64,000 nt of DNA from Halogeometricum sp. S1BR25-6 (GTDB taxonomy: Archaea > Halobacteriota > Halobacteria > Halobacteriales > Haloferacaceae): positions 310,001 through 374,000 of the forward strand of contig NZ_JAMQOP010000003.1 of assembly GCF_031624495.1 (NCBI RefSeq). The letters run 5' to 3'. This document shows positions 27,936 to 38,897 of this stretch, piece after piece; within the stretch, counting starts at the first letter, position 1, and every line of letters begins with the position of its first letter. Below the pieces are notes generated by a model that made no database searches, was not told the DNA's origin, and saw nothing but the letters and a program-made list of their open reading frames with translations. A program made the position numbers and the translations under genes.

Positions 27936-28075
27936 CTCCCGCGGCGCCGCCGAACCTCCGAACAGGCGTCTCGACGGTGTGAGACCGCAGCACACCTCGA
28001 TGTAGTGTCTCGCGGCCGAACATATTTTTCTGTCCGAGGGTGCGAACCTAATTTTACAATATCACGAATCTCGGC

Positions 28076-28084
28076 GATAAAACT
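28076..28084 (+). promoter_or_regulatory. TATA-like element of the NhaC antiporter gene
   Basis: GATAAAACT in an AT-rich spacer, centred about 35 nt before the ATG at 28115, implying a leader of only about 8-10 nt. Confidence 0.45.
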
Positions 28085-28114
28085 TAACACACGGGAGAAG
28101 AGAGACTGGCTGTC

Positions 28115-29680
28115 ATGCCCGCAGAGTCGTACGGAGCCATCAGCCTGCTCCCGGCGCTGTTCGCCATCGTGCTGACGCTGGTGAGCCGGCAGGTGCTCCT
28201 CTCGTTGTTCACCGGAATCTGGATCGGCGCGACCATACTGGTCGGGTGGAACCCCATCGGGGGGATGGCCCACTCCCTCCAGTTGGTCATCAACAGCCTC
28301 ATCACGCCGTTCAACAGCAAACTACTGTTGTTCACGTTCCTCTCGGGGGCGATGCTCGGGATGATATTCCTCTCGGGCGGGATGAAGGCGCTGGCTGAGC
28401 GCATCATCGCCCGCATCAAGACCCGAAGACAGGCCGAGGTCGGCACGAGCATCCTCGGGATGCTCATCTTCGTCGACTCCTACGCGAGCACGATGATCAC
28501 TGGGTCGGTGATGCGACCCATTACCGACCAGTTCGACATCAGCCGCGAGAAACTCGCGTACCTGCTCGACTCGACCACCTCACCGGTCGTGAGTATCGCC
28601 GTCGTCTCGACGTGGGTCGGGTTCGAGGTGGGACTCATCCGCGACCAGTTCTCCTCGCTCGGCATCGACCAGAGCGCGTTCGTGGTGTTCCTCCAGAGCA
28701 TCCCGTACCGCTTCTACAGCCTCCTCGCAATCGCGCTCGTGTTCATCCTCGTCGGCATGGGTTGGAACTTCGGCCCGATGAAGCGCGCCGAGAAGCGCGC
28801 GAAGGAGGAGGGGAAGGTGCTCGGGGACGACGCCGACCCCCTCATCGAGACGCGCGAGGAGGACATCGTCACGCCCGACCACGTCGACTCGCGCTGGTGG
28901 TACTTCGCCGCACCCATCGTCGCCTTGGTCGCCGTCACCGGGTTCGGTCTGCTGTACTCCGGCGGGTGGCCGTCGACGGCGCCCGTCGAGGCCCTGAAGG
29001 ACGCCGCCACCGCCGACGCCATCCTGTGGGGCGTCTTCTCGGCCTGCGCCCTGCTGCTCGCCATCCTCGTCGGACACGCCCGCATCGAACTCGAAGCGGT
29101 GAGCGACTCCATGTTCGAGGGGTTCAAGATGGTGATGTTCCCGGTGGCCGTCCTCACGCTGGCGTGGACCATCGGCGGCGTCAGCGAGACGCTCGGCGTC
29201 GGACCGTTCGTCGTCAGCATCGCGGAGGGCATCATCACCGCGCCGCTCCTGCCGGCTATCGTGTTCGTCGCCGCGGCCATCGTCTCCTTCTCCATCGGCA
29301 CCTCGTGGGGGACGATGGGCATCATGTTCCCCGTCGCGGTGCCGTTGGCGTTCCAACTCGGCGCACCGCTTCCGGGCGCTATCGGCGCCATCCTCACCGG
29401 GTCGCTGTTCGGCGACCACTGCTCGCCCATCAGCGACACGACGGTGCTGTCGTCGATGTTCGCCGGCGCCGACCACGTCGACCACGTGAACACGCAGATT
29501 CCCTACGCGGTGCTCTGCGGGGCGGTGGCGACGCTGCTGTTCCTCGCCACCGGATACGGATTCAGCGGCCCAATCCTGCTCCTGCCCGTGGGCGTGCTGG
29601 CGCTGTTCGTCACCGCGTACTACCTCTCGGAACGCCGCGACGCGGACGTTCCGAACGTCTTCGGTTCCTCGTCGGACTGA
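28115..29680 (+). CDS. NhaC-family Na+/H+ antiporter or related carrier
   Basis: A protein of 521 residues with about 11-12 spans. Family blocks are LLPALFAIVLTLVSRQVLLS at the N-terminus, the DSYASTMITGSVMRPITDQF region (about 127-146), SFSIGTSWGTMGIMFPVAVP (about 391-410) and GSLFGDHCSPISDTTVLSS (about 430-448), all typical of the NhaC/ion-transporter superfamily that exchanges Na+ for H+ or amino acids. It would help maintain low internal Na+ or move metabolites in a salt-loving cell. Single gene with its own promoter. Confidence 0.85.
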   Translation: MPAESYGAISLLPALFAIVLTLVSRQVLLSLFTGIWIGATILVGWNPIGGMAHSLQLVINSLITPFNSKLLLFTFLSGAMLGMIFLSGGMKALAERIIARIKTRRQAEVGTSILGMLIFVDSYASTMITGSVMRPITDQFDISREKLAYLLDSTTSPVVSIAVVSTWVGFEVGLIRDQFSSLGIDQSAFVVFLQSIPYRFYSLLAIALVFILVGMGWNFGPMKRAEKRAKEEGKVLGDDADPLIETREEDIVTPDHVDSRWWYFAAPIVALVAVTGFGLLYSGGWPSTAPVEALKDAATADAILWGVFSACALLLAILVGHARIELEAVSDSMFEGFKMVMFPVAVLTLAWTIGGVSETLGVGPFVVSIAEGIITAPLLPAIVFVAAAIVSFSIGTSWGTMGIMFPVAVPLAFQLGAPLPGAIGAILTGSLFGDHCSPISDTTVLSSMFAGADHVDHVNTQIPYAVLCGAVATLLFLATGYGFSGPILLLPVGVLALFVTAYYLSERRDADVPNVFGSSSD

Positions 29681-29787
29681 CGAACCCCGACGCCGTCTGA
29701 CTTTTTTGACGCCGAACGACGAGCGAGCGCGCGGTCGAACCGCTCGGGAGGCGTTTTTTGTCACTGGTGCGATCAGATGTGGGCAGA

Positions 29788-29946
29788 ATGGAACGGGCGT
29801 ACGTTTACTACGGCTTCCTCGCGCTCTGGGGCTGGACGGACGGGACAGACGCGCTCCTGACCGGAGCGACGCGGGGGTGGAACGTCCCGTCCGCCGTACA
29901 GGCCGTCGCCGGCGCCCTGCTGGTCGCGGTGGCGGGACGAGGCTAG
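29788..29946 (+). CDS. Small membrane protein of 52 residues, possibly frameshift-truncated
   Basis: ATG 29788 opens a hydrophobic protein with two short spans (about 4-20 and 33-49) ending AVAGRG and TAG at 29944-29946. Just downstream, in another frame (about 29950-30060), lies a third membrane-like segment FEVGPAGFWGVVLGVSALLG with good haloarchaeal codon use, but without a start of its own. The two pieces may be one small membrane gene broken by an indel near 29930-29945. No clean stop matches the second piece, so this is uncertain. Confidence 0.4.
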   Translation: MERAYVYYGFLALWGWTDGTDALLTGATRGWNVPSAVQAVAGALLVAVAGRG

Positions 29947-30076
29947 CGAGGGGGTCGCCGTCCGACTTCGAGGTCGGTCCGGCCGGGTTCTGGGGCGTCG
30001 TGCTCGGCGTCTCGGCCCTCCTCGGACTTCGTCTGCTCCGAGTTCGACCGACCCGTCGATGGAAAGGCTTCGTCGC

Positions 30077-30292
30077 TCACGCCATCTTCGCGAGACTCAC
30101 GAACGACCCTTCTTCGGCGGTTATCCACGTCGTCGTGCGCTCGAAGCCGACGAGGTCGGGCGGGAACAGCGTACACTCGGCCGGCCCGCCTCGCGGGAGG
30201 ACTATCTCAGCCGTCAGTCGCGGCGGTCGGTCCGTCGGCCCCGTCTCTCTCGGCGGGCGGTTCTCGGCGTTGTGCGTGGCGTTGTCGTCCAT
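30077..30292 (-). CDS. DUF7511-like small haloarchaeal protein
   Basis: A protein of 71 residues from ATG 30292. The pattern AECTLFPPDLVGFERTTTWI followed by TAEEGSFVSLAKMA is that of a widespread small haloarchaeal family (DUF7511 as I recall it) with a conserved Cys and a TTWITA core. N-terminus is polar and Pro-rich. Function unknown. The frame is open upstream to 30472, but the family core supports this start. Confidence 0.65.
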   Translation of the reverse strand: MDDNATHNAENRPPRETGPTDRPPRLTAEIVLPRGGPAECTLFPPDLVGFERTTTWITAEEGSFVSLAKMA

Positions 30293-30504
30293 CGTTGTGA
30301 CCTCGGGAGCGAATTCGCTCTCCACGGCAACTACGACCACCGGGCGCATGACTGGCCACCGTGGTTCCCGGCGGGCGAGAACTGCGGGCCCCGTCGGCTC
30401 CTCGACCGCGCGTTCGCGACGCGGGAGTAGTCGGCCCCCCACCCCGTGAAGATTATCCAGTGATATTACCAACGTATTTCATCACCGAGCCGGTACGGGC
30501 GAGC

Positions 30505-31170
30505 ATGAGCTTCACCGACGACCTATCGACGGTTGCGGACCCCATCTGGGACGCCATCGAGGACCACCCGATGGTCCGGCGGTTGGGCGCGGGCACGCTG
30601 TCGACGGACCCCTTCGAGTACTGGGTGCGGCAGGACTACGTCTACCTCGTCGACTACGCGCGGGTGTTCGCCTACGGCGCGGCGACGGCGCCGGATTTGG
30701 AACGAATGGGCACGTTCGCCGAACTCTTAGACTCGACCATCAACACCGAGATGGACCTCCACCGCGCGTACGCCATGGAGTTCGGAATCGGCGAAGCGGA
30801 GTTGGAAGCGACGGAGGCGTCGCCGACGACGCGAGCGTACACGGACTTTCTCGTCCGCACCGCCGCGACGGGGTCGTTCGGCGACCTGGTGGCCGTTCTC
30901 CTCCCGTGCATGTGGGGGTTCAACGAGACGGCCGAGCGACTGCGGGCGACGGGCAAACCCGACGACGAGCGCTACGCCGAGTGGATAGACACCTACGCGG
31001 GCGCGGAGTTCACCGAACTCACGACGTGGTGCAAGGAGCTGATGGACGACGTGGCCCGCGGCGCGAGCGACGCGGAACGCGAGCGCTACCGCGACCTGTT
31101 CTACGAGTCAGGGCGGTACGAGTACCGCTTCTGGGACGCCGCGTGGCGACAGGAGGGGTGGGAGCTATGA
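30505..31170 (+). CDS. tenA: TenA family aminopyrimidine aminohydrolase (TenA_C type)
   Basis: An all-helical protein of 221 residues from ATG 30505. TenA hydrolyses aminopyrimidines from degraded thiamine to HMP for thiamine salvage. The catalytic Cys falls at residue 135 in LLPCMWGFNET, the same position as in the Bacillus enzyme, and the second catalytic acid is Glu201 or Glu206 in YESGRYEYRFWD. The N-terminal DPFEYWVRQDYVYLVDYARV (about 33-52) is also family-typical. A GTATTTC element about 28 nt upstream may be the promoter. First gene of a five-gene operon; its stop overlaps the next start (ATGA). Confidence 0.9.
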   Translation: MSFTDDLSTVADPIWDAIEDHPMVRRLGAGTLSTDPFEYWVRQDYVYLVDYARVFAYGAATAPDLERMGTFAELLDSTINTEMDLHRAYAMEFGIGEAELEATEASPTTRAYTDFLVRTAATGSFGDLVAVLLPCMWGFNETAERLRATGKPDDERYAEWIDTYAGAEFTELTTWCKELMDDVARGASDAERERYRDLFYESGRYEYRFWDAAWRQEGWEL

Positions 31171-31937
31171 GCGAGAGAGACGGGGACGAACGCGGACCCG
31201 AGCGCGAGTCCGTCCCCGAGTCGTTCGACGCGTACGCCGAGACGGTCGCCAACGCCCGCGTCACCGACTGGCTCCGGGAGCGCGCCGAACCCGAGTGGAT
31301 GGCGGCGACGACCCACCGGTTCACCCGCGAACTGGGCGCCGGCGAGGTGGACGACGCGGCGTTCCGGCGGTATCTGGTGCAGGACTACGCCTTCCTCGGG
31401 TCGCTCGTCGGCCTCGTGGGACACGCCGTCGGCGACGCGCCGACGATGGCGTCGAAGCGTCGGCTGTCGACGTTCCTCGGAACGCTCACATCCGAGGAGG
31501 ACGACTACTTCGAGCGCTCCTTCGAGGCGCTGGGCGTCTCACCGAAACGGTACGAGAACCCGACGCGAACGCCAACGACGCTGGCGTTCGAGGACCTCAT
31601 CGGCCGCGCCGCGCGGGAGGGCGGCTACGCCGAACGACTGGCCGTGCTCCTGCCCGCCGAGTGGGTGTACGAGGAGTGGGCGACGGCCGTCGACGAGGGG
31701 TCCCAATCCCCCGACCGATTCTACCTCGACGAGTGGGTGCACCTCCACGCGAACGAGGAGTTTCGGGCGTTCGTGGGATGGCTCCGCGCGGAACTCGACC
31801 GCGAGGGCGCCGCGGCCTCCCCGCGGCGTCGGCGCCGCCTCGAACGGCTCTTCGCGCGGACCGTCTCGCTGGAAGTCGCGTTCTTCGACGACGCCTACGG
31901 GGACCACGCGTCGAGCGGGGGTGAGCGGGAGTGGTGA
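31167..31937 (+). CDS. Second TenA-family protein lacking the catalytic Cys (TenA_E-like)
   Basis: A protein of 256 residues starting in a 4-nt ATGA overlap with the first tenA. After an acidic N-terminus of about 40 residues it has the TenA fold (FRRYLVQDYAFLGSLVGLVG; SFEALGVSPKRYENPTRTPT). At the site equivalent to Cys135 it reads LLPAEWVYEEW, i.e. Ala164-Glu165 instead of Cys-Met. Known TenA proteins without the Cys (TenA_E) use an acidic residue there and act on other thiamine breakdown products such as formylaminopyrimidine. The assignment to that class is inference. Confidence 0.8.
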   Translation: MSERDGDERGPERESVPESFDAYAETVANARVTDWLRERAEPEWMAATTHRFTRELGAGEVDDAAFRRYLVQDYAFLGSLVGLVGHAVGDAPTMASKRRLSTFLGTLTSEEDDYFERSFEALGVSPKRYENPTRTPTTLAFEDLIGRAAREGGYAERLAVLLPAEWVYEEWATAVDEGSQSPDRFYLDEWVHLHANEEFRAFVGWLRAELDREGAAASPRRRRRLERLFARTVSLEVAFFDDAYGDHASSGGEREW

Positions 31938-33523
31938 GTTCGACCGTCGCCCTCGGCCTCACCGTCGTCACCCTCTCCGTCTTCGCGGGGTTGGGACTGT
32001 GGGTCTCGCGGGGGCGCGTCGACTCCGTCGAGGACTTCATCACCGCCCGCGGCGCCGCGGACGAGGGGCGGTTGAGCGCCACGCTCGTCGCCTCGGTGAT
32101 GGGCGTGTGGATACTGCTGTCGGCCCCCGAGGCGGGCGCGCTGTACGGTATCGCCGCGGCCGTCGGCTACGGACTCGGCGAGGCGGCGCCGATGCTCGCG
32201 TACTCCCGATTAGGGCCGCAGATTCGAGAGCTGATTCCGGAGGGGCACTCGCTGACCGAGTACGCCTACGCGCGGTACGGCGGCGCGATGTACGCGTTCG
32301 TCCTCGCGGTCAGCGCCCTCTACATGTTCGTCTTCCTCGCCGCCGAGTTGACGGGCATCTCGCTGGCGTTCCACTACGTCGCCGGCGTCCCCCAGTGGCA
32401 GACGGCCACGCTCGTCACCGGGTTCGTCCTCGTCTATACCGCCTACGGCGGCCTCCGGGCGAGCATCGCCACCGACGCGGTGCAGCTGGTCGTCGTCCTC
32501 CCCCTCCTCGCCGGAAGCGTCGCGGCCCTGCTGTTCGCGCTCGGCGGACCCGGCGCCGTCGTCGACGGCGTCGCGGACGCGAACCCGGCGCTCTTGGACC
32601 CCGGCTACGTCCCCGGCCTGCGGTTCGGCGTCGCCCTCGTGTTCGCGGTGCTCGGCGCGGAACTACTCAACCAGACGTGGTGGCAGCGAATCTACGCCGC
32701 CGACGGCTCCGAGACCGTCAAGCGGAGCTTTCGCGTCGCGACCGTCGCGAACGGGCTTATCCTCCTCGTGGCCACGCTGCTCGGCGTCGTCGCCGTCGGA
32801 AACTCCGGCGTCGTCACGACGGGCGCGGAGTACAACGCCGGCGTCGCCTTCTTCGTTCTCCTGGACGGCGCGTTCTCCGAACCACTGGTGGTCGGCGTCC
32901 TCCTTCTCGCCCTGCTGCTCGTGACGAGCACGGCCGACTCGCTGTTCAACGCCCTCTCGAGTCTCGTCACCGCCGACCTGCCGCGGGTGCTGGACGACCC
33001 CGACGACCGGACGCTCCGACTCGGCGCGCGCGCCGTCACCGTCGTCGTCGCCGTCGCCGCCGTCGCCGTCAGCCTCCGCGCGCGCAGCGTCCTCAGCCTG
33101 TTCTTCGTCGCGGACCTCCTCGGCGCCGCCGTCGGCGTCCCCCTCGTCTACGGGCTGTTCAGCGGTCGGCTGTCGGGACGGGGCGCGCTGGCGAGCGCCC
33201 TCCTCGGCCTCGCCGTCGGGAGCGCGTTCTTCCCCTTCCCGTTCGGACTGCACGGCGCGGTCGACTCGCTCCTCGGCGGCCTCCTCCCCGCGCCCGACCC
33301 GACCTACCTCGTGCCGTTCGCCGGCGCGTTTCTCGTCTCTTCGGCCGCGGCGGCCGTCGCGGCGCGCTTGTCGAGCCGCGAGTTCGACCTCGACCGCCTC
33401 TCGCGGGAGATTCGCCGCCTCGACCGACCCGTCGCCGACGGCGGAACGCCGCGCGACCTGGACGGTCCGAACGGGCCTGACGGTCCGGGCGGTCGACCCT
33501 CCGAGGGGGCGGAGGACCGATGA
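31934..33523 (+). CDS. Sodium:solute symporter (SSS) family transporter
   Basis: GTG start at 31934 overlaps the preceding stop (GTGA); a GTG at 31931 is also possible. The 529-residue protein has about 13 spans. SSS signatures include a first-span SVEDFITARGAADEGRLSAT loop, GYGLGEAAPMLAYSRLGPQI (about 74-93), the TAYGGLRASIATDAVQ block (about 170-185) and TSTADSLFNALSSLV (about 335-349). The C-terminus is a long polar Asp/Gly/Pro tail. Coupling to tenA points to Na+-driven uptake of a thiamine-related pyrimidine or vitamin. The stop overlaps the micro-ORF start. Confidence 0.85.
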   Translation: MSSTVALGLTVVTLSVFAGLGLWVSRGRVDSVEDFITARGAADEGRLSATLVASVMGVWILLSAPEAGALYGIAAAVGYGLGEAAPMLAYSRLGPQIRELIPEGHSLTEYAYARYGGAMYAFVLAVSALYMFVFLAAELTGISLAFHYVAGVPQWQTATLVTGFVLVYTAYGGLRASIATDAVQLVVVLPLLAGSVAALLFALGGPGAVVDGVADANPALLDPGYVPGLRFGVALVFAVLGAELLNQTWWQRIYAADGSETVKRSFRVATVANGLILLVATLLGVVAVGNSGVVTTGAEYNAGVAFFVLLDGAFSEPLVVGVLLLALLLVTSTADSLFNALSSLVTADLPRVLDDPDDRTLRLGARAVTVVVAVAAVAVSLRARSVLSLFFVADLLGAAVGVPLVYGLFSGRLSGRGALASALLGLAVGSAFFPFPFGLHGAVDSLLGGLLPAPDPTYLVPFAGAFLVSSAAAAVAARLSSREFDLDRLSREIRRLDRPVADGGTPRDLDGPNGPDGPGGRPSEGAEDR

Positions 33524-33630
33524 GTTCCGTCGCACGCGCCGCGCGCGACGACCTCGCGCTCGTCACCGGTGGTGCCGACGATGAGTCGGCAGCACGTCGA
33601 ACAGCGTTCGACGGCGGTGACGACCGATGA
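33520..33630 (+). CDS. Micro-ORF of 36 residues between two transporter genes
   Basis: Starts in an ATGA overlap with the symporter stop and ends in an ATGA overlap with the Nramp-like start, so it exactly bridges two coupled genes. The product is polar and charged (MSSVARAARDDLALVTGGAD first, then Asp/Arg-rich), with no membrane span or metal motif. It may be a small regulatory subunit or only a device that passes ribosomes along the message. No family recognised. Confidence 0.55.
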   Translation: MSSVARAARDDLALVTGGADDESAARRTAFDGGDDR

Positions 33631-34952
33631 GCGACGCGACGCCGACGCTCTCTGGGAATCGACTGGCGGGGGTGCGCGAGCGACTGTCCGGGATGGGCCC
33701 CGCGTGGGTCGCAGGCGCCGTCGCGGCCGGACCGGCGACGATGGCGAGTCTCGTCACCGCCGGAGCGGCCTTCGACTACGCGCTGCTGTGGGTCGTCGTG
33801 CTGTCGGCCGCGGCGGGGACGCTCGCGCAGTATCTCGCGATGCGGTTGGGGCTGCTGACCGAGCGCGGAATCGTCGCCGTCGTGGAGGCGCACCTCGGCG
33901 AGCGGTGGGCGTGGCTGCTCGTCGCCGACGTGGTGGTCGCCGCCGGCGCCGCACAGTTGGTGATACTGAACACGCTCGCGACCGTCACGGCGACGGTGAC
34001 GGGCGTGAGCGCGGGAGCCTGCGGCGTCGCGTGGGCGCTGGTGCTCGCGGGCGGACTGGCGGGACGGGGCTACGACTTCCTCGAACTGGCGGCGAAACTA
34101 CTCGTGGCCGGCGTCGTCGTCGCGTTCGTCTCCTCGCTTCTCGTCGTGCCCGTCGACCCGGGTGCCGCGGCGCGGGGACTCGTCCCGACGCTCCCTGCGG
34201 GCAGTGCGGTGCTGGCCGCCGGCATCCTCGGCGGCGCAGTGCACGTCACGCTGGTGACGATGCACTCGTACACGATGCGGGCACGCGGGTGGTCGGCGTC
34301 GGACGCGGGTCTCGCCGTCTTCGACGTGGTCGCCTCGATGTTCGTCGCCTTCGGCGTCTACAGCGTCGCCATCTTCCTCGTCGCGGCGAGCGTGCTGTCG
34401 GACCCGAACCTCACGACGGTGGGCGCCGCGGAGGCGCTGGGTCCGCTCGTCGGCCCGAGCGCGGAATGGCTGTTCCTCCTCGGACTCGGCGGCGCGGCCG
34501 TCTCGACGCTCGGGGGCAACACCGTCGCGCCGCCGTTCCTCCTCGCGGACAAACTCGGCTGGGGGACGACGGTCGAGGACGGACGCTACCGCGCCTTTCT
34601 GGCCGGATTCGCGCTGCTGTCGGCGCCGGGCGCGTTCATCGGCGGCGAGGTGCTCGGCCAACTCGTCCTCGTCCTCGCCCTCGGCACCGTGGGAACGCCG
34701 TTCGCCCTCGCCCTCGTGCTCTACCTCCTGAACTCCCCGGCGGCGCCCGAACCGACCTCGGCGCTCGCCAACGTCGGCGGCGTCGCAGTCTTCCTCGTCT
34801 CGGGTGCGCTGGCGACGAACTTCGTCCGCGGGGAGGTCGCCGGCGGCGTCGGTCCGCTCTCGGGGGGCGTCCTCGCGTTCGCCGTCGTCGTCGCCGTCGC
34901 GACGGTCGGCCTCGCCGGAAAGTACGTCCGCGAGGAAGTTGGGAGCGCGTAG
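33627..34952 (+). CDS. Nramp-like transporter without canonical metal-binding motifs
   Basis: A protein of 441 residues with about 11 spans and the Nramp fold layout (MGPAWVAGAVAAGP...YALLW in span 1, GAVHVTLVTMHSYTMRARG in span 6). In true Nramp metal carriers span 1 has DPGN and span 6 has MPH; here the aligned residues are GPAT and HVT, so Asp, Asn, Met and the first His are all lost. Transition-metal transport is therefore unlikely. As the last gene of the tenA operon, coupled by ATGA, it may carry a thiamine-related molecule or Mg2+; both are inference. Confidence 0.75.
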   Translation: MSDATPTLSGNRLAGVRERLSGMGPAWVAGAVAAGPATMASLVTAGAAFDYALLWVVVLSAAAGTLAQYLAMRLGLLTERGIVAVVEAHLGERWAWLLVADVVVAAGAAQLVILNTLATVTATVTGVSAGACGVAWALVLAGGLAGRGYDFLELAAKLLVAGVVVAFVSSLLVVPVDPGAAARGLVPTLPAGSAVLAAGILGGAVHVTLVTMHSYTMRARGWSASDAGLAVFDVVASMFVAFGVYSVAIFLVAASVLSDPNLTTVGAAEALGPLVGPSAEWLFLLGLGGAAVSTLGGNTVAPPFLLADKLGWGTTVEDGRYRAFLAGFALLSAPGAFIGGEVLGQLVLVLALGTVGTPFALALVLYLLNSPAAPEPTSALANVGGVAVFLVSGALATNFVRGEVAGGVGPLSGGVLAFAVVVAVATVGLAGKYVREEVGSA

Positions 34953-35326
34953 GCGCGGTCGGACCGCCCGGTCGCCGGCCGCCGGTCACCTCCGGTCGTC
35001 GGTACCGCCGAATCGGACCTTCCGTGTGCTGTGTGTCCGTACAGCACACCGACCGCGTTTCGATGCGGTGCTGCTAGATATTCACACGCGGTCGAAACGG
35101 GCGCTAACCCCCCGTGTACGGCGAATTAGTATCCGGTTGACAGGGCCAAGTACCGTATAACAAAGTACGTACCTCCCGGTTCGGTCGGTAGACCCGCCTC
35201 TCTACTCGGCGGTCGAACACACATGCTCGAAGTTACACAGGCGGCCCCTTCGACCCGCGCTCTCCACGGAATCGAGGGAACGACAGTCGACGCGCAGACA
35301 GCGACATCGCACGGCCGGAGGTCGAC
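34953..35326. other. Intergenic region with stem-loop and promoter
   Basis: No supported gene of normal size. It contains a 9-bp hairpin (35024-35049, listed separately), an AT-rich promoter-like stretch with CCGTATAACAAAG at 35153-35165, and a 37-codon frame from ATG 35223 that ends inside the start of the dehydrogenase gene (TGA 35334-35336), whose protein character is weak. The dehydrogenase leader would be about 140 nt. Confidence 0.45.
35024..35049. terminator. Stem-loop after the tenA operon
   Basis: GTGTGCTGT (35024-35032) and ACAGCACAC (35041-35049) pair perfectly around an 8-nt loop, 72 nt after the Nramp-like stop. There is no T-tract, so it may be a transcript-end or processing structure, or an operator, rather than a classic terminator. 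Confidence 0.4.
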
Positions 35327-36697
35327 GTGGCGGTGACGGGTCTGTACGAGAGCCGACAGGACCCGGACGAACAGCGGCGGGCGTTCACGTCCGGCGAGGT
35401 TCCCGTCTCAGTCGTCGGTCTCGGGAAGATGGGACTCCCCCTCGCCGCGGTGTACGCCGAGACGGCCGGCGACGTGGTCGGCGTCGACGTCGACCAGGAC
35501 GTCGTCGACGGCATCAACGAGGGCCGCTCGCACATCAAGGGCGAACCGGGCCTCTCGGACCTCGTCGCCGAACAGGTGGAGGCCGGGCGACTCCGCGCCA
35601 CCACCTCGGCCGCCGAAGCCGCCGAAGCCGCGGCGGTGCACGTCGTCATCGTCCCGACGCCGCTGACGAACGACCACGAACCGGACCTCTCGGCGCTGAC
35701 CGCCGCCGTCGAGGGTATCGGCGAGGGCCTCTCGAAGGGCGACCTCGTCGTCGTCGAGTGCACCGTTCCGCCGGGAACGTGCGAGGGCCGCGTTCGCCCG
35801 CTCCTCTCGTCGGTCAGCGGCCTCGACGAGGACGAGTTCGGCGTCGCCTTCTGTCCCGAACGGACGTCCAGCGGACGGGCGCTGAAGGACATCCGCGGCG
35901 CGTATCCCAAGGTCGTCGGCGGCGCGGACGAAGAGAGCGGCCGCGCGGCCGAACTCGTCTACGGCGAACTCACCTCGAACGACATCGTCCCGATGGAGGA
36001 CGCGACGTCGGCGGAGGCGGTGAAACTGTTCGAGGGCGTCTACCGCGACGTGAACATCGCCCTGGCAAACGAACTCGCAAAACTCGACCGCGACCTCGGC
36101 ATCGACGTCAACGAGGCCATCGACGCGGCGAACACCCAACCGTTCTGCGACATCCACACGCCCGGTCCGGGTGTCGGGGGCCACTGCATCCCCTTCTACC
36201 CGTACTTCATCATGAAGTACACCGAGACCGACACCCCGCTCCTGCGGACGGCCCGCGAGGTGAACGACTCGATGCCCGCACACACCGTGCACCTGCTCGC
36301 CGACGGTCTGGAGGCGATGGGGCGCGACGTGGACGGGTCGACCGTCGCGGTGCTCGGAATCACCTACCGGGCCGGCGTCGAGGAGACGCGGAAGACGCCC
36401 GCCGCCGGCGTCATCGACGGCCTGAACGCGCGCGGCGCGAAGGTGCTCGCCGCCGACCCCCTCATCGACGACATCGAGTCGTTCGGTGCGACGCCCATCG
36501 AGGCCCGAGATATTCCCGATGCAGACGTCGACGCCGTCGTCCTCGTCACCGCTCACGAGGAGTTCGCCGATATCGACTGGGGGCGTCTCGAAGACGCCCT
36601 CCTCGTCGACGGACGCGGCGTCCTCGAAGAGTGGTGCGGCGACGGCGACTACCGCATCCTGACCATCGGAGGGGGAGAGCGTGTATCGGGACAGTAG
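35327..36697 (+). CDS. UDP-N-acetylhexosamine 6-dehydrogenase (nucleotide-sugar dehydrogenase)
   Basis: A protein of 456 residues from GTG 35327. Rossmann motif VVGLGKMGLPLAAVYAE is near 27-43. The catalytic Cys287 is in GPGVGGHCIPFYP. Further conserved parts are VPTPLTNDHEPDLS (about 109-122), CPERTSSGRALKDI (about 176-189) and the C-terminal GITYRAGVEETRKTPA (about 345-360). The family oxidises UDP-GlcNAc or UDP-ManNAc to the uronic acid with two NAD+. It could supply the uronate precursor for the aminotransferase/acetyltransferase set at 52.3-54.0 kb. It overlaps the next glycosyltransferase by 17 nt. Confidence 0.88.
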   Translation: MAVTGLYESRQDPDEQRRAFTSGEVPVSVVGLGKMGLPLAAVYAETAGDVVGVDVDQDVVDGINEGRSHIKGEPGLSDLVAEQVEAGRLRATTSAAEAAEAAAVHVVIVPTPLTNDHEPDLSALTAAVEGIGEGLSKGDLVVVECTVPPGTCEGRVRPLLSSVSGLDEDEFGVAFCPERTSSGRALKDIRGAYPKVVGGADEESGRAAELVYGELTSNDIVPMEDATSAEAVKLFEGVYRDVNIALANELAKLDRDLGIDVNEAIDAANTQPFCDIHTPGPGVGGHCIPFYPYFIMKYTETDTPLLRTAREVNDSMPAHTVHLLADGLEAMGRDVDGSTVAVLGITYRAGVEETRKTPAAGVIDGLNARGAKVLAADPLIDDIESFGATPIEARDIPDADVDAVVLVTAHEEFADIDWGRLEDALLVDGRGVLEEWCGDGDYRILTIGGGERVSGQ

Positions 36698-37853
36698 CGT
36701 CGCCGTCGTCGTCCCCGCCTACAACGAGGAGGGGTTCGTCGGCAGCGTGGTGCGCGGTATCCCGGCCTACGTCGACAAGATATACGTCGTCGACGACCGG
36801 TCGACGGACGGCACGTGGGACGAACTGCAGGAGTGCGCGGAGCGGATGAACGCCGAAGGCGAGGGCGACGGCGAACGCGTCGTCCCCATCCGCCACGAGC
36901 GGAACCGCGGCGTCGGCGGCGCCATCAAGACCGGTTACAAACGGGCGCTGCGCGACGAAATCGACGTGACCGCCGTCATCGCCGGCGACGGGCAGATGGA
37001 CCCGAGCAAACTGACGCAGTTTCTCGACCCCATCGTCGACGGCGAGGCCGACTACACGAAGGGTAACCGCCTCTGGCGCGAGGACACCTGGCGTGAGATG
37101 TCGCGGTGGCGGCTGTTCGGCAACCGACTGCTCACCGTCCTGACGAAGATAGCCAGCGGCTACTGGGGAATGGTCGACCCGCAGAACGGCTACGCGGCCA
37201 TCTCGCTGCGGGCCCTCGAGGAACTGCCGATCGACGACCTCTACGAGGAGTACGGCTTCCTCAACGACCTGCTGGTGCATCTCAACGTGCAGGGGCTCCG
37301 AATCGCCGACGTGCCGCACGAGGCGGTGTACGGCGAGGAGCAGAGCGGTATCAAGTACTCGACGTTCGTCCCGCGACTGTCGAAGCTCCTCCTGCGCGAT
37401 TTCCTCTGGCGGCTGAAGATGAAGTACTTCGTCTACGACTTCCACCCGACGGGGCTGTGTTACGCACTCGGCGCCGCCGGAACCGGCGCCGGTGCGGTCG
37501 CGGCGCTGAAGGCGCTGGCGGACCGCGACTCCGAGAGCCGCTTCACGGACCTGCTGCTGTCCGGCGTCGTCTCGCTTCTGGGATGGCTCTTCTTGGTCGT
37601 CGCCGTCGTCCTCGACATCGACCGGAACGCCGACCTGATGGCGTCCGGCGAGTACGGCGAGCGACGCGCGGAGGCCGACATCCCGGACGCGGCGTACGCG
37701 CACGCCGGCGAAGCGACGAGCGGCGCCCCGGAGCGAGCGAGCGACACCGACCGCGGTCCCGACTCCGAGAGCGAGGACGCGAGCGGGAACGAAAGTGCCG
37801 CGGACGGCGGTTCCGAGGACGTCGACCGGTCTTCCGGGGGGAGCGAACGGTGA
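36681..37853 (+). CDS. GT2 glycosyltransferase with C-terminal membrane segments (DPM-synthase-like)
   Basis: A protein of 390 residues from GTG 36681. The GT-A domain begins VAVVVPAYNEEGFVGSVVRG; DDRSTDGT (about 38-45), NRGVGGAIKTGYKRAL (about 75-90) and AGDGQMDP (about 99-106) are typical of dolichol-phosphate-sugar synthases and related GT2 enzymes. Two hydrophobic spans near 252-275 and 293-312 anchor it; the last 65 residues are Asp/Glu/Ser-rich. It likely transfers a sugar to a lipid carrier at the cytoplasmic face for glycan assembly. Confidence 0.85.
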   Translation: MYRDSSVAVVVPAYNEEGFVGSVVRGIPAYVDKIYVVDDRSTDGTWDELQECAERMNAEGEGDGERVVPIRHERNRGVGGAIKTGYKRALRDEIDVTAVIAGDGQMDPSKLTQFLDPIVDGEADYTKGNRLWREDTWREMSRWRLFGNRLLTVLTKIASGYWGMVDPQNGYAAISLRALEELPIDDLYEEYGFLNDLLVHLNVQGLRIADVPHEAVYGEEQSGIKYSTFVPRLSKLLLRDFLWRLKMKYFVYDFHPTGLCYALGAAGTGAGAVAALKALADRDSESRFTDLLLSGVVSLLGWLFLVVAVVLDIDRNADLMASGEYGERRAEADIPDAAYAHAGEATSGAPERASDTDRGPDSESEDASGNESAADGGSEDVDRSSGGSER

Positions 37854-37889
37854 CGGACGCCCGTCGGTCCACTGCCGGCCGCCGCGGAG

Positions 37890-38897
37890 GTGAACGCAGC
37901 CGTGCGGAACTCGGCTGAACGCACGTCCGGCGCGGTCGGACTGACCGTCGAAGCGGTCCTCGTCGTCGTCGCCCTCGCAGTGTTCGGGGCGGCGGCGCTG
38001 ACGCTCCCGCCGGGTCCGACCCGTATCGCCGTCGTCCTTCTCGGACTGCTGTGGCTTCCGGGCTACGCTATCACGACGCTGGTGTTCCCGAAGCGCGTCG
38101 TCGAGCGACCGGCGCGAAGCCGTCGGTTGGGACGAACCGACACCGGGTCGCGCCGCGGGACGCTGACGGGCGCGCAGCGCGCCGGACTCTCGCTCGGCCT
38201 CAGCGTCGCCGTGCTCCCGGTGTTCGGCGTCGTCATCGTGGCCAGTCCGCTCGCGCTCTCGGTCCCGGTGGTGCTCGCGGCGGTGGTCGGGTTCACCGTG
38301 CTCGTGTTCGCCCTCGGCCTCGTACGTCGGGTGCGGAAACGCGAAGAGAGCCGGTACGTGCTTCCGCTGGCCGCGTTCCGCCGGACCATCGGCGCCGGGT
38401 TCCAGGGGTCGGCCCTCGACACCGGACTGAACGTGCTGCTGGTTCTCGTTCTCGTCGTCGCCAGCGCCGGGTTCCTCGGGGCGGTGGCGCTCCCGCAGGA
38501 CCAGACGAGTTACACGCGGGTGTCGCTGCTCACCGAGAACGAGCAGGGGAACCTGGTCGCCAACGGCTACCAGACGGACCTCACGGTGGGCGAGTCAGCC
38601 GAGTACGTACTGGAGGTCGCGAACCACGAGAACGGACCGGAGACGTACACCGTCGTCGTCGAACAGCAGGAAGTGGGTGAGGGCGGCAACGTCGTCAGGT
38701 CCGCCGAGATAGACCGGTACCAGCGCAACATCGGCGAGAACGTAACGTGGCGGTTACGGCACGAACTCCGTCCGACCTTCGCCGGTGAGAACCTCCGGTA
38801 CACCTACCTCGTCTACCGCGGCGAGGCGCCGGACGACCCGAGCGTCGACTCGGCGTACCGCCACCTGACGCTGGACATCAACGTCAGCGGGTCGTAG
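37890..38897 (+). CDS. DUF1616-type membrane protein
   Basis: A protein of 335 residues from GTG 37890. Spans near 17-40, 45-65, 92-112, 118-140 and 172-192 are followed by a soluble extracellular domain of about 140 residues with TDLTVGESAEYVLEVANHEN and a beta-sandwich look. The LLGLLWLPGYAITTLVFPKR block near the start is characteristic of DUF1616 proteins, which often lie in archaeal glycosylation clusters. Several sequons are present. Function unknown. 36 nt after the GT2 gene, so probably in the same operon. Confidence 0.75.
   Translation: MNAAVRNSAERTSGAVGLTVEAVLVVVALAVFGAAALTLPPGPTRIAVVLLGLLWLPGYAITTLVFPKRVVERPARSRRLGRTDTGSRRGTLTGAQRAGLSLGLSVAVLPVFGVVIVASPLALSVPVVLAAVVGFTVLVFALGLVRRVRKREESRYVLPLAAFRRTIGAGFQGSALDTGLNVLLVLVLVVASAGFLGAVALPQDQTSYTRVSLLTENEQGNLVANGYQTDLTVGESAEYVLEVANHENGPETYTVVVEQQEVGEGGNVVRSAEIDRYQRNIGENVTWRLRHELRPTFAGENLRYTYLVYRGEAPDDPSVDSAYRHLTLDINVSGS

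Follow-up and report, generated by a model that had tools for sequence, protein, structure and literature searches.

The five open reading frames (ORFs) at 30505-34952 of the window, the whole 64-kb stretch of DNA analyzed here, probably form a thiamine-regulated salvage operon in which a protein with the Nramp fold serves as a carrier of an organic substrate and not as a divalent metal importer. This reading builds on gene content and linkage, on an operator motif shared with thiC and thi4, on the loss of metal and proton residues from the Nramp-family protein, and on a structural model in which that protein has the Nramp fold. From these observations we infer the transport of a thiamine-related compound and a division of labor between two carriers. 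In the proposed scheme, low levels of thiamine phosphates would cause a ThiR-type repressor (HTH plus ThiN, encoded beside thi4) to leave a double operator before tenA1, allowing transcription. Uptake of thiamine breakdown products or precursors would then fall to the SSS symporter and the Nramp-fold carrier. From aminopyrimidine-type fragments, TenA2 and TenA1 would produce HMP, and thiamine phosphate would be rebuilt by the products of the thiE-thiM-thiD genes, which lie elsewhere.

The ORFs called in the window lie on the plus strand in the order TenA1, TenA2, SSS, a 36-codon ORF, and an Nramp-family gene, and a 4-nucleotide overlap can be read from the sequence at every junction (ATGA at 31167, GTGA at 31934, ATGA at 33520, and ATGA at 33627). 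Both the coordinates and the sequence therefore confirmed the arrangement given in the original prediction. A Pfam scan of the five ORFs returned TENA_THI-4 (179.5 and 94.3 bits), SSF (77.2 bits), and Nramp (216.8 bits), with no Pfam match for the micro-ORF at 33520-33630. When other haloarchaeal genomes were searched for the same adjacency, using gene calls and start sites from a custom script, the order TenA1-(TenA2)-SSS-Nramp recurred in several haloarchaeal families. The -4 overlaps between TenA1 and TenA2 and between TenA2 and SSS were also present in relatives. The SSS/Nramp overlap was not conserved; in most relatives the two genes were separated by 43 to 271 nt, and this gap was usually filled by a different, membrane-spanning microprotein. 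Hence, the five-part layout that had been proposed held only in part: the order of the TenA, SSS, and Nramp genes is kept, but the 36-codon ORF is not part of the conserved unit, because it is a local variant of the microprotein slot. The further proposal, that of a coordinated salvage unit with its own uptake, was supported by adjacency, by co-occurrence, by linkage to ThiDN and ThiR, and by the operator that the operon shares with thiC and thi4; the refuting outcome named with it, a gene order that relatives do not keep, was not observed. The two carriers may take different products, as was also proposed. On the 3' side of the operon, at 35327-38897 of the window, a sugar-nucleotide dehydrogenase gene and two more genes follow in an order that was kept in genomes G001 and G004 and not in G002.

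The 36-codon ORF (33520..33630, plus strand) has no transmembrane (TM) segment and would be a remnant or a linker in a slot that, in about a dozen relatives, encodes a single-TM peptide of 33 to 54 amino acids whose start overlaps the SSS stop. This microprotein has one hydrophobic helix and the consensus GPTxFAVLLWGSxLGVxLVFxYE, and neither it nor the 36-codon ORF matched any Pfam or NCBIfam family above the cut-off. In the window the slot holds 36 hydrophilic codons and in the sister genome L031 it holds 16, also hydrophilic, with both ends common to the two. The 36-codon ORF was rejected as a conserved fifth gene, since L031, whose carrier is 91% identical, has only the 16 codons and other relatives have the TM microprotein. 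The ORF looks like what is left of a gene for an SSS partner, and the microprotein may be a symporter subunit. Unannotated examples of the microprotein were seen at about 5788-5906 of L146, at about 10937-11079 of L154, and at other SSS 3' ends.

The candidate ThiR operator (30448..30481, plus strand) consists of two overlapping palindromes, 24 to 57 nt upstream of the TenA1 start and 13 nt apart, that scored 14.5 bits (30448-30468) and 9.9 bits (30461-30481). The weight matrix used for scoring was trained on thiC upstream regions only (37 genomes) and included no Nramp or TenA sequence. A TATTAC-N3-GTAATA-like palindrome was found upstream of thiC in 36 of the 37 genomes, and 35 of 36 thiC regions and 40 of 64 Nramp regions had a second copy at a distance of exactly 13 nt. 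The site at 30448-30468 was the best of the 64-kb window, elsewhere in which only 9.2 and 9.5 bits were reached, and shuffled windows gave 0.03 matches above 14 bits. Across the window's genome, the matrix placed 13-nt double sites at thiC, at thi4, and before tenA1, and a ThiR-type gene (HTH plus ThiN) adjoins thi4. The thiC-derived matrix also scored 11 of 13 TenA operons above 10 bits, and of 80 named loci with Nramp operons, 64 exceeded 8 bits and 76 exceeded 5 bits, compared to 1 and 14, respectively, of 403 other genes of the same loci and 1 and 4 of 80 shuffled upstream sequences. Stand-alone Nramp-type genes were likewise preceded by the thiC motif, and the motif was lacking from every protein gene sampled from the other Nramp subfamilies of haloarchaea (highest score, 4.6 bits). 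Of twelve background genes that had scored above 10 bits, most proved to be PhyH genes at the start of PhyH-Nramp operons, and the count of 1 in 403 above 8 bits is that of the corrected background. A degenerate consensus with one mismatch was discarded as a genome-wide marker, since its 28 matches versus 21 for the reversed control were not specific; the weight matrix and the 13-nt double layout were the only criteria that discriminated operator sites.

As expected of a ThiR regulon, the operon shares its operator with thiC, and the genome contains a ThiR-type gene. Archaeal ThiR regulons, as reportedly described by Rodionov et al. in 2017, comprise an HTH-ThiN regulator, a palindromic operator, and thiamine genes, and the operon resembles them in all three respects. 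ThiR represses under sufficiency, and it would presumably bind the operators predicted here. No TPP riboswitch was matched by Rfam in 28000-36000. ThiD, ThiE, and ThiM-like genes are present in the window's genome and form one cluster, so that HMP made by TenA would be usable. The matrix scan found no thiC-type site at this thiE-thiM-thiD locus, and the regulation therefore covers only part of the pathway.

TenA1 (30505..31170, plus strand) scored 186 bits against TIGR04306 (cut-off, 130) and is a Cys-type TenA (thiaminase II/aminopyrimidine aminohydrolase). It retains the equivalents of C135, D44, Y47, Y112, and E205 of Bacillus subtilis TenA, with Y139 replaced by F, and its closest solved structure is that B. 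subtilis protein (1to9). The score above the cut-off together with the catalytic Cys135 and Glu205 places it in the TenA_C class, and on these sequence grounds TenA1 is a thiaminase II. TenA2 (31167..31937, plus strand) is a cysteine-less paralogue that matched PF03070 at 94.3 bits and TIGR04306 at 79 bits, below the cut-off. It carries C135A, Y47F, Y112F, and Y163H and retains D44 and E205, a residue pattern identical to that of its nearest solved relative, Streptococcus pneumoniae 1z72. Having the TenA fold, Ala135, and Glu205 and no active-site cysteine, TenA2 fits the description of TenA_E. The TenA_E enzymes, likewise cysteine-less, were reportedly found by Zallot in 2014 (a study cited in PMC5874261) to act on formyl-aminopyrimidine, and a relay from TenA2 to TenA1 is plausible for this reason; the two proteins may divide the labor between them. 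The operon resembles TenA-based aminopyrimidine salvage (TenA_C/TenA_E and the YlmB/ThiXYZ route) in that TenA1 is of the TenA_C type and TenA2 is cysteine-less as TenA_E is. In contrast to the YlmB/ThiXYZ route, two TenA proteins and two secondary carriers are here encoded in one overlapping unit that contains no YlmB or ABC importer. Among the archaeal TenA_E sequences recovered from TARA Oceans, most are of haloarchaeal origin (PMC10470507).

The SSS-family sodium:solute symporter (31934..33523, plus strand, GTG start) matched PF00474 at 77.2 bits (cut-off, 22.8) and TIGR00813 at 115.7 bits, below the cut-off of the latter model. Its gene was found in 39 of 99 genomes and co-occurred with the Nramp and TenA genes, and the protein is a probable pyrimidine or thiamine carrier. 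In SAR11, HMP is likely carried by ThiV, an SSS protein (PMC11452348), and the two systems are alike in that an SSS protein is, here by prediction, under thiamine control; the control here would be by a DNA operator rather than by a TPP riboswitch. What looked like a fusion of SSS and Nramp in L041 was dismissed as an artefact of ORF extension, since a TAA lies inside it.

The most unusual part of the operon, and one that the original prediction did not mention, is the loss of the metal site in its Nramp-family protein (33627..34952, plus strand; PF01566, 216.8 bits), which belongs to a subfamily that we designate GPAT. In alignment with DraNramp, the DPGN motif of TM1, which supplies the Asp and Asn ligands, is replaced by GPAT, with G35 and T38 at the ligand positions; the MPH motif of TM6 is replaced by HVT, with H206 aligned to Met230 and T208 to the motif's His; and the acidic proton residues of TM3 are replaced as well (DraNramp D131 by Q110 and E134 by I113). 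G35, P36, A37, H206, Q110, and I113 were invariant in both alignments (41 and 63 orthologues), and T38 was nearly so. An AlphaFold model of the carrier (pLDDT, 86) showed TM1 broken at 34-35 and TM6 broken at 205-206, at the usual substrate site, and fitted DraNramp 6d91 (Z score, 45.7), EleNRMT (39.3), YcsG (38), and the cytosine carrier CodB (27.9). The protein therefore shares PF01566 membership and the LeuT-type Nramp fold with SLC11, and broken TM1 and TM6 helices with the SLC11/Nramp and NRMT metal transporters DraNramp and EleNRMT, but it differs from these in having no DPGN, no MPH, and no acidic residues in TM3.

According to Cellier, PF01566 comprises SLC11, an outgroup without the Mn and proton features, and NRMT (PMC9606685). 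One member of this family, PxpT, is required by cells to take up 5-oxoproline (PMC13274462). PxpT/YcsG and the GPAT carrier both have the Nramp-family fold outside the classical SLC11 role and are encoded with the pathway of an organic compound (YcsG model 9a52; Z score, 38). They differ in that the operon contains TenA, ThiR, and ThiDN here and oxoprolinase there, and the two proteins are 14% identical in the structural alignment. No 5-oxoprolinase gene of the YcsG/PxpT kind stood beside the GPAT carrier, whose neighbors are TenA, SSS, ThiDN, ThiR, a P-loop protein, or PhyH. In another haloarchaeal Nramp subfamily, GPGT/VVGYN (L257, L259, L262, L264, and L266), a hydantoinase/oxoprolinase A gene lies directly 3', as in YcsG/PxpT operons; organic-linked Nramp branches may therefore be common in haloarchaea.

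We considered the possibility that the Nramp-family protein imports Fe2+, Mn2+, or Mg2+ within the thiamine regulon and so supplies Thi4, ThiC, or other thiamine enzymes. It is a member of PF01566 with a fold closest to that of DraNramp, and YcsG has been reported as an Mn2+ importer that raises cellular Mn2+ (PMC10448178); metal might therefore be moved even by a PF01566 protein that lacks the classical ligands. However, every one of the Asp, Asn, and Met ligands has given way to another residue, as has the His of MPH, and these changes are invariant or nearly so; the acidic residues of TM3 are lost (Q110 and I113), the linked genes are those of salvage (TenA, SSS, and ThiDN), and the presence of the carrier does not track ThiC. 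Import of metal is thus unlikely, and carriage of an organic substrate is the reading that we prefer.

Of 99 related genomes, 49 had an orthologue of the carrier, at 56 to 91% identity. When 393 genomes were drawn from across the phylum, the 34 proteins that matched at E <= 1e-70 all belonged to the same taxonomic order, and a scan of GTDB genomes yielded 152 relatives, of which the 80 kept were all haloarchaeal (nearest, Halogeometricum pallidum, 89%). The gene also occurs in Haloferax, in H. mucosum and H. gibbonsii among others. The GPAT-type carrier was seen only in haloarchaea. Among the 99 genomes, it occurred with TenA in 42 of 49 (P = 4e-7) and with SSS in 35 of 49 (P = 3e-11), where one genome was taken per species and the statistics ignore kinship and shared ancestry. 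Half of the Nramp loci (25 of 50) had a TenA, SSS, or ThiN-domain gene no more than 8 kb away, and the neighbors included ThiR (HTH plus ThiN) and ThiDN, as confirmed by Pfam. The absence of ThiC was not associated with Nramp, SSS, or TenA, and 18 of the 49 genomes with the Nramp-type gene have ThiC. Auxotrophy for HMP was rejected as the driver on this account, and the carrier is not simply a trait of HMP auxotrophs. In genome G042, where ThiC, TenA, and SSS gave no match, the Nramp-type carrier and its P-loop neighbor were kept beside ThiDN. We therefore favor HMP or thiamine over an aminopyrimidine as the substrate of the Nramp-type carrier, on the evidence of this single genus. In G030 (L141), the Nramp-type gene was split in two frames, by frameshift, decay, or sequencing error.

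The same observations bear on whether the Nramp-type protein of a thiamine salvage operon might instead export, and so detoxify, toxic pyrimidine or thiazole by-products. The direction of transport cannot be read from a sequence, and the regulation would fit export equally, but G042 has the carrier beside ThiDN without ThiC, TenA, or SSS, a setting in which import is needed, and ThiR-type repression by sufficiency suits import better; we regard export as improbable. Salvage of a related pyrimidine or nucleobase for nitrogen, with the thiamine link secondary, would accord with the other roles that TenA-superfamily proteins can have and with the missing cysteine of TenA2, but is very improbable given the motif common to thiC and thi4 and the ThiR and ThiDN neighbors.

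In 44 of 80 loci, the Nramp-type gene is followed directly by a gene for a P-loop protein of about 185 amino acids (GPSNxGKT), and the two often overlap by 4 nt (for example, L146:7323-7871, with 25 further rows in alignment A3). The P-loop gene was present in 26 of the 99 genomes, each time adjoining the Nramp-type gene, and was missing from the window's genome. The protein had no Pfam match above the cut-off; its model (pLDDT, 93) is RecA-like and also near CobU, and it is possibly a thiamine or HMP kinase. We tentatively suggest, as a bolder reading that is less likely than not, that the Nramp-fold protein is a B1 (thiamine/HMP) importer, accompanied in many species by the P-loop protein as a possible trapping kinase, and that the SSS protein has the single-TM microprotein as its partner. 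In G030 and in G050 (contig C3), the P-loop gene was split in two frames, with frameshift, decay, and sequencing error again as the candidate causes.

Family models would name the GPAT carrier a divalent metal transporter. If the organic-substrate reading is true, a subfamily found in about half of the sampled haloarchaea is misnamed, and archaea would gain an uptake step for thiamine pyrimidines that has so far been missing from their pathway; if the protein carries a vitamin precursor, it would represent a second organic-substrate branch of Nramp besides YcsG/PxpT. The shared operator makes the hypothesis directly testable in genetically tractable haloarchaea.

Two other kinds of genes were observed beside the Nramp-type gene. 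At L147:4388-5890 and L161:1607-3100, a gene whose product looks by eye like an M32 carboxypeptidase adjoins the same operator-bearing intergenic region as the Nramp-type gene and is perhaps a mere divergent neighbor. In 13 of 80 loci (for example, L210:5199-5963 and L176:5191-5967), the first gene of the Nramp operon encodes a PhyH-type (PF05721) oxygenase, with the thiC motif upstream in most of them, and three more PhyH genes are divergent to the Nramp operon.
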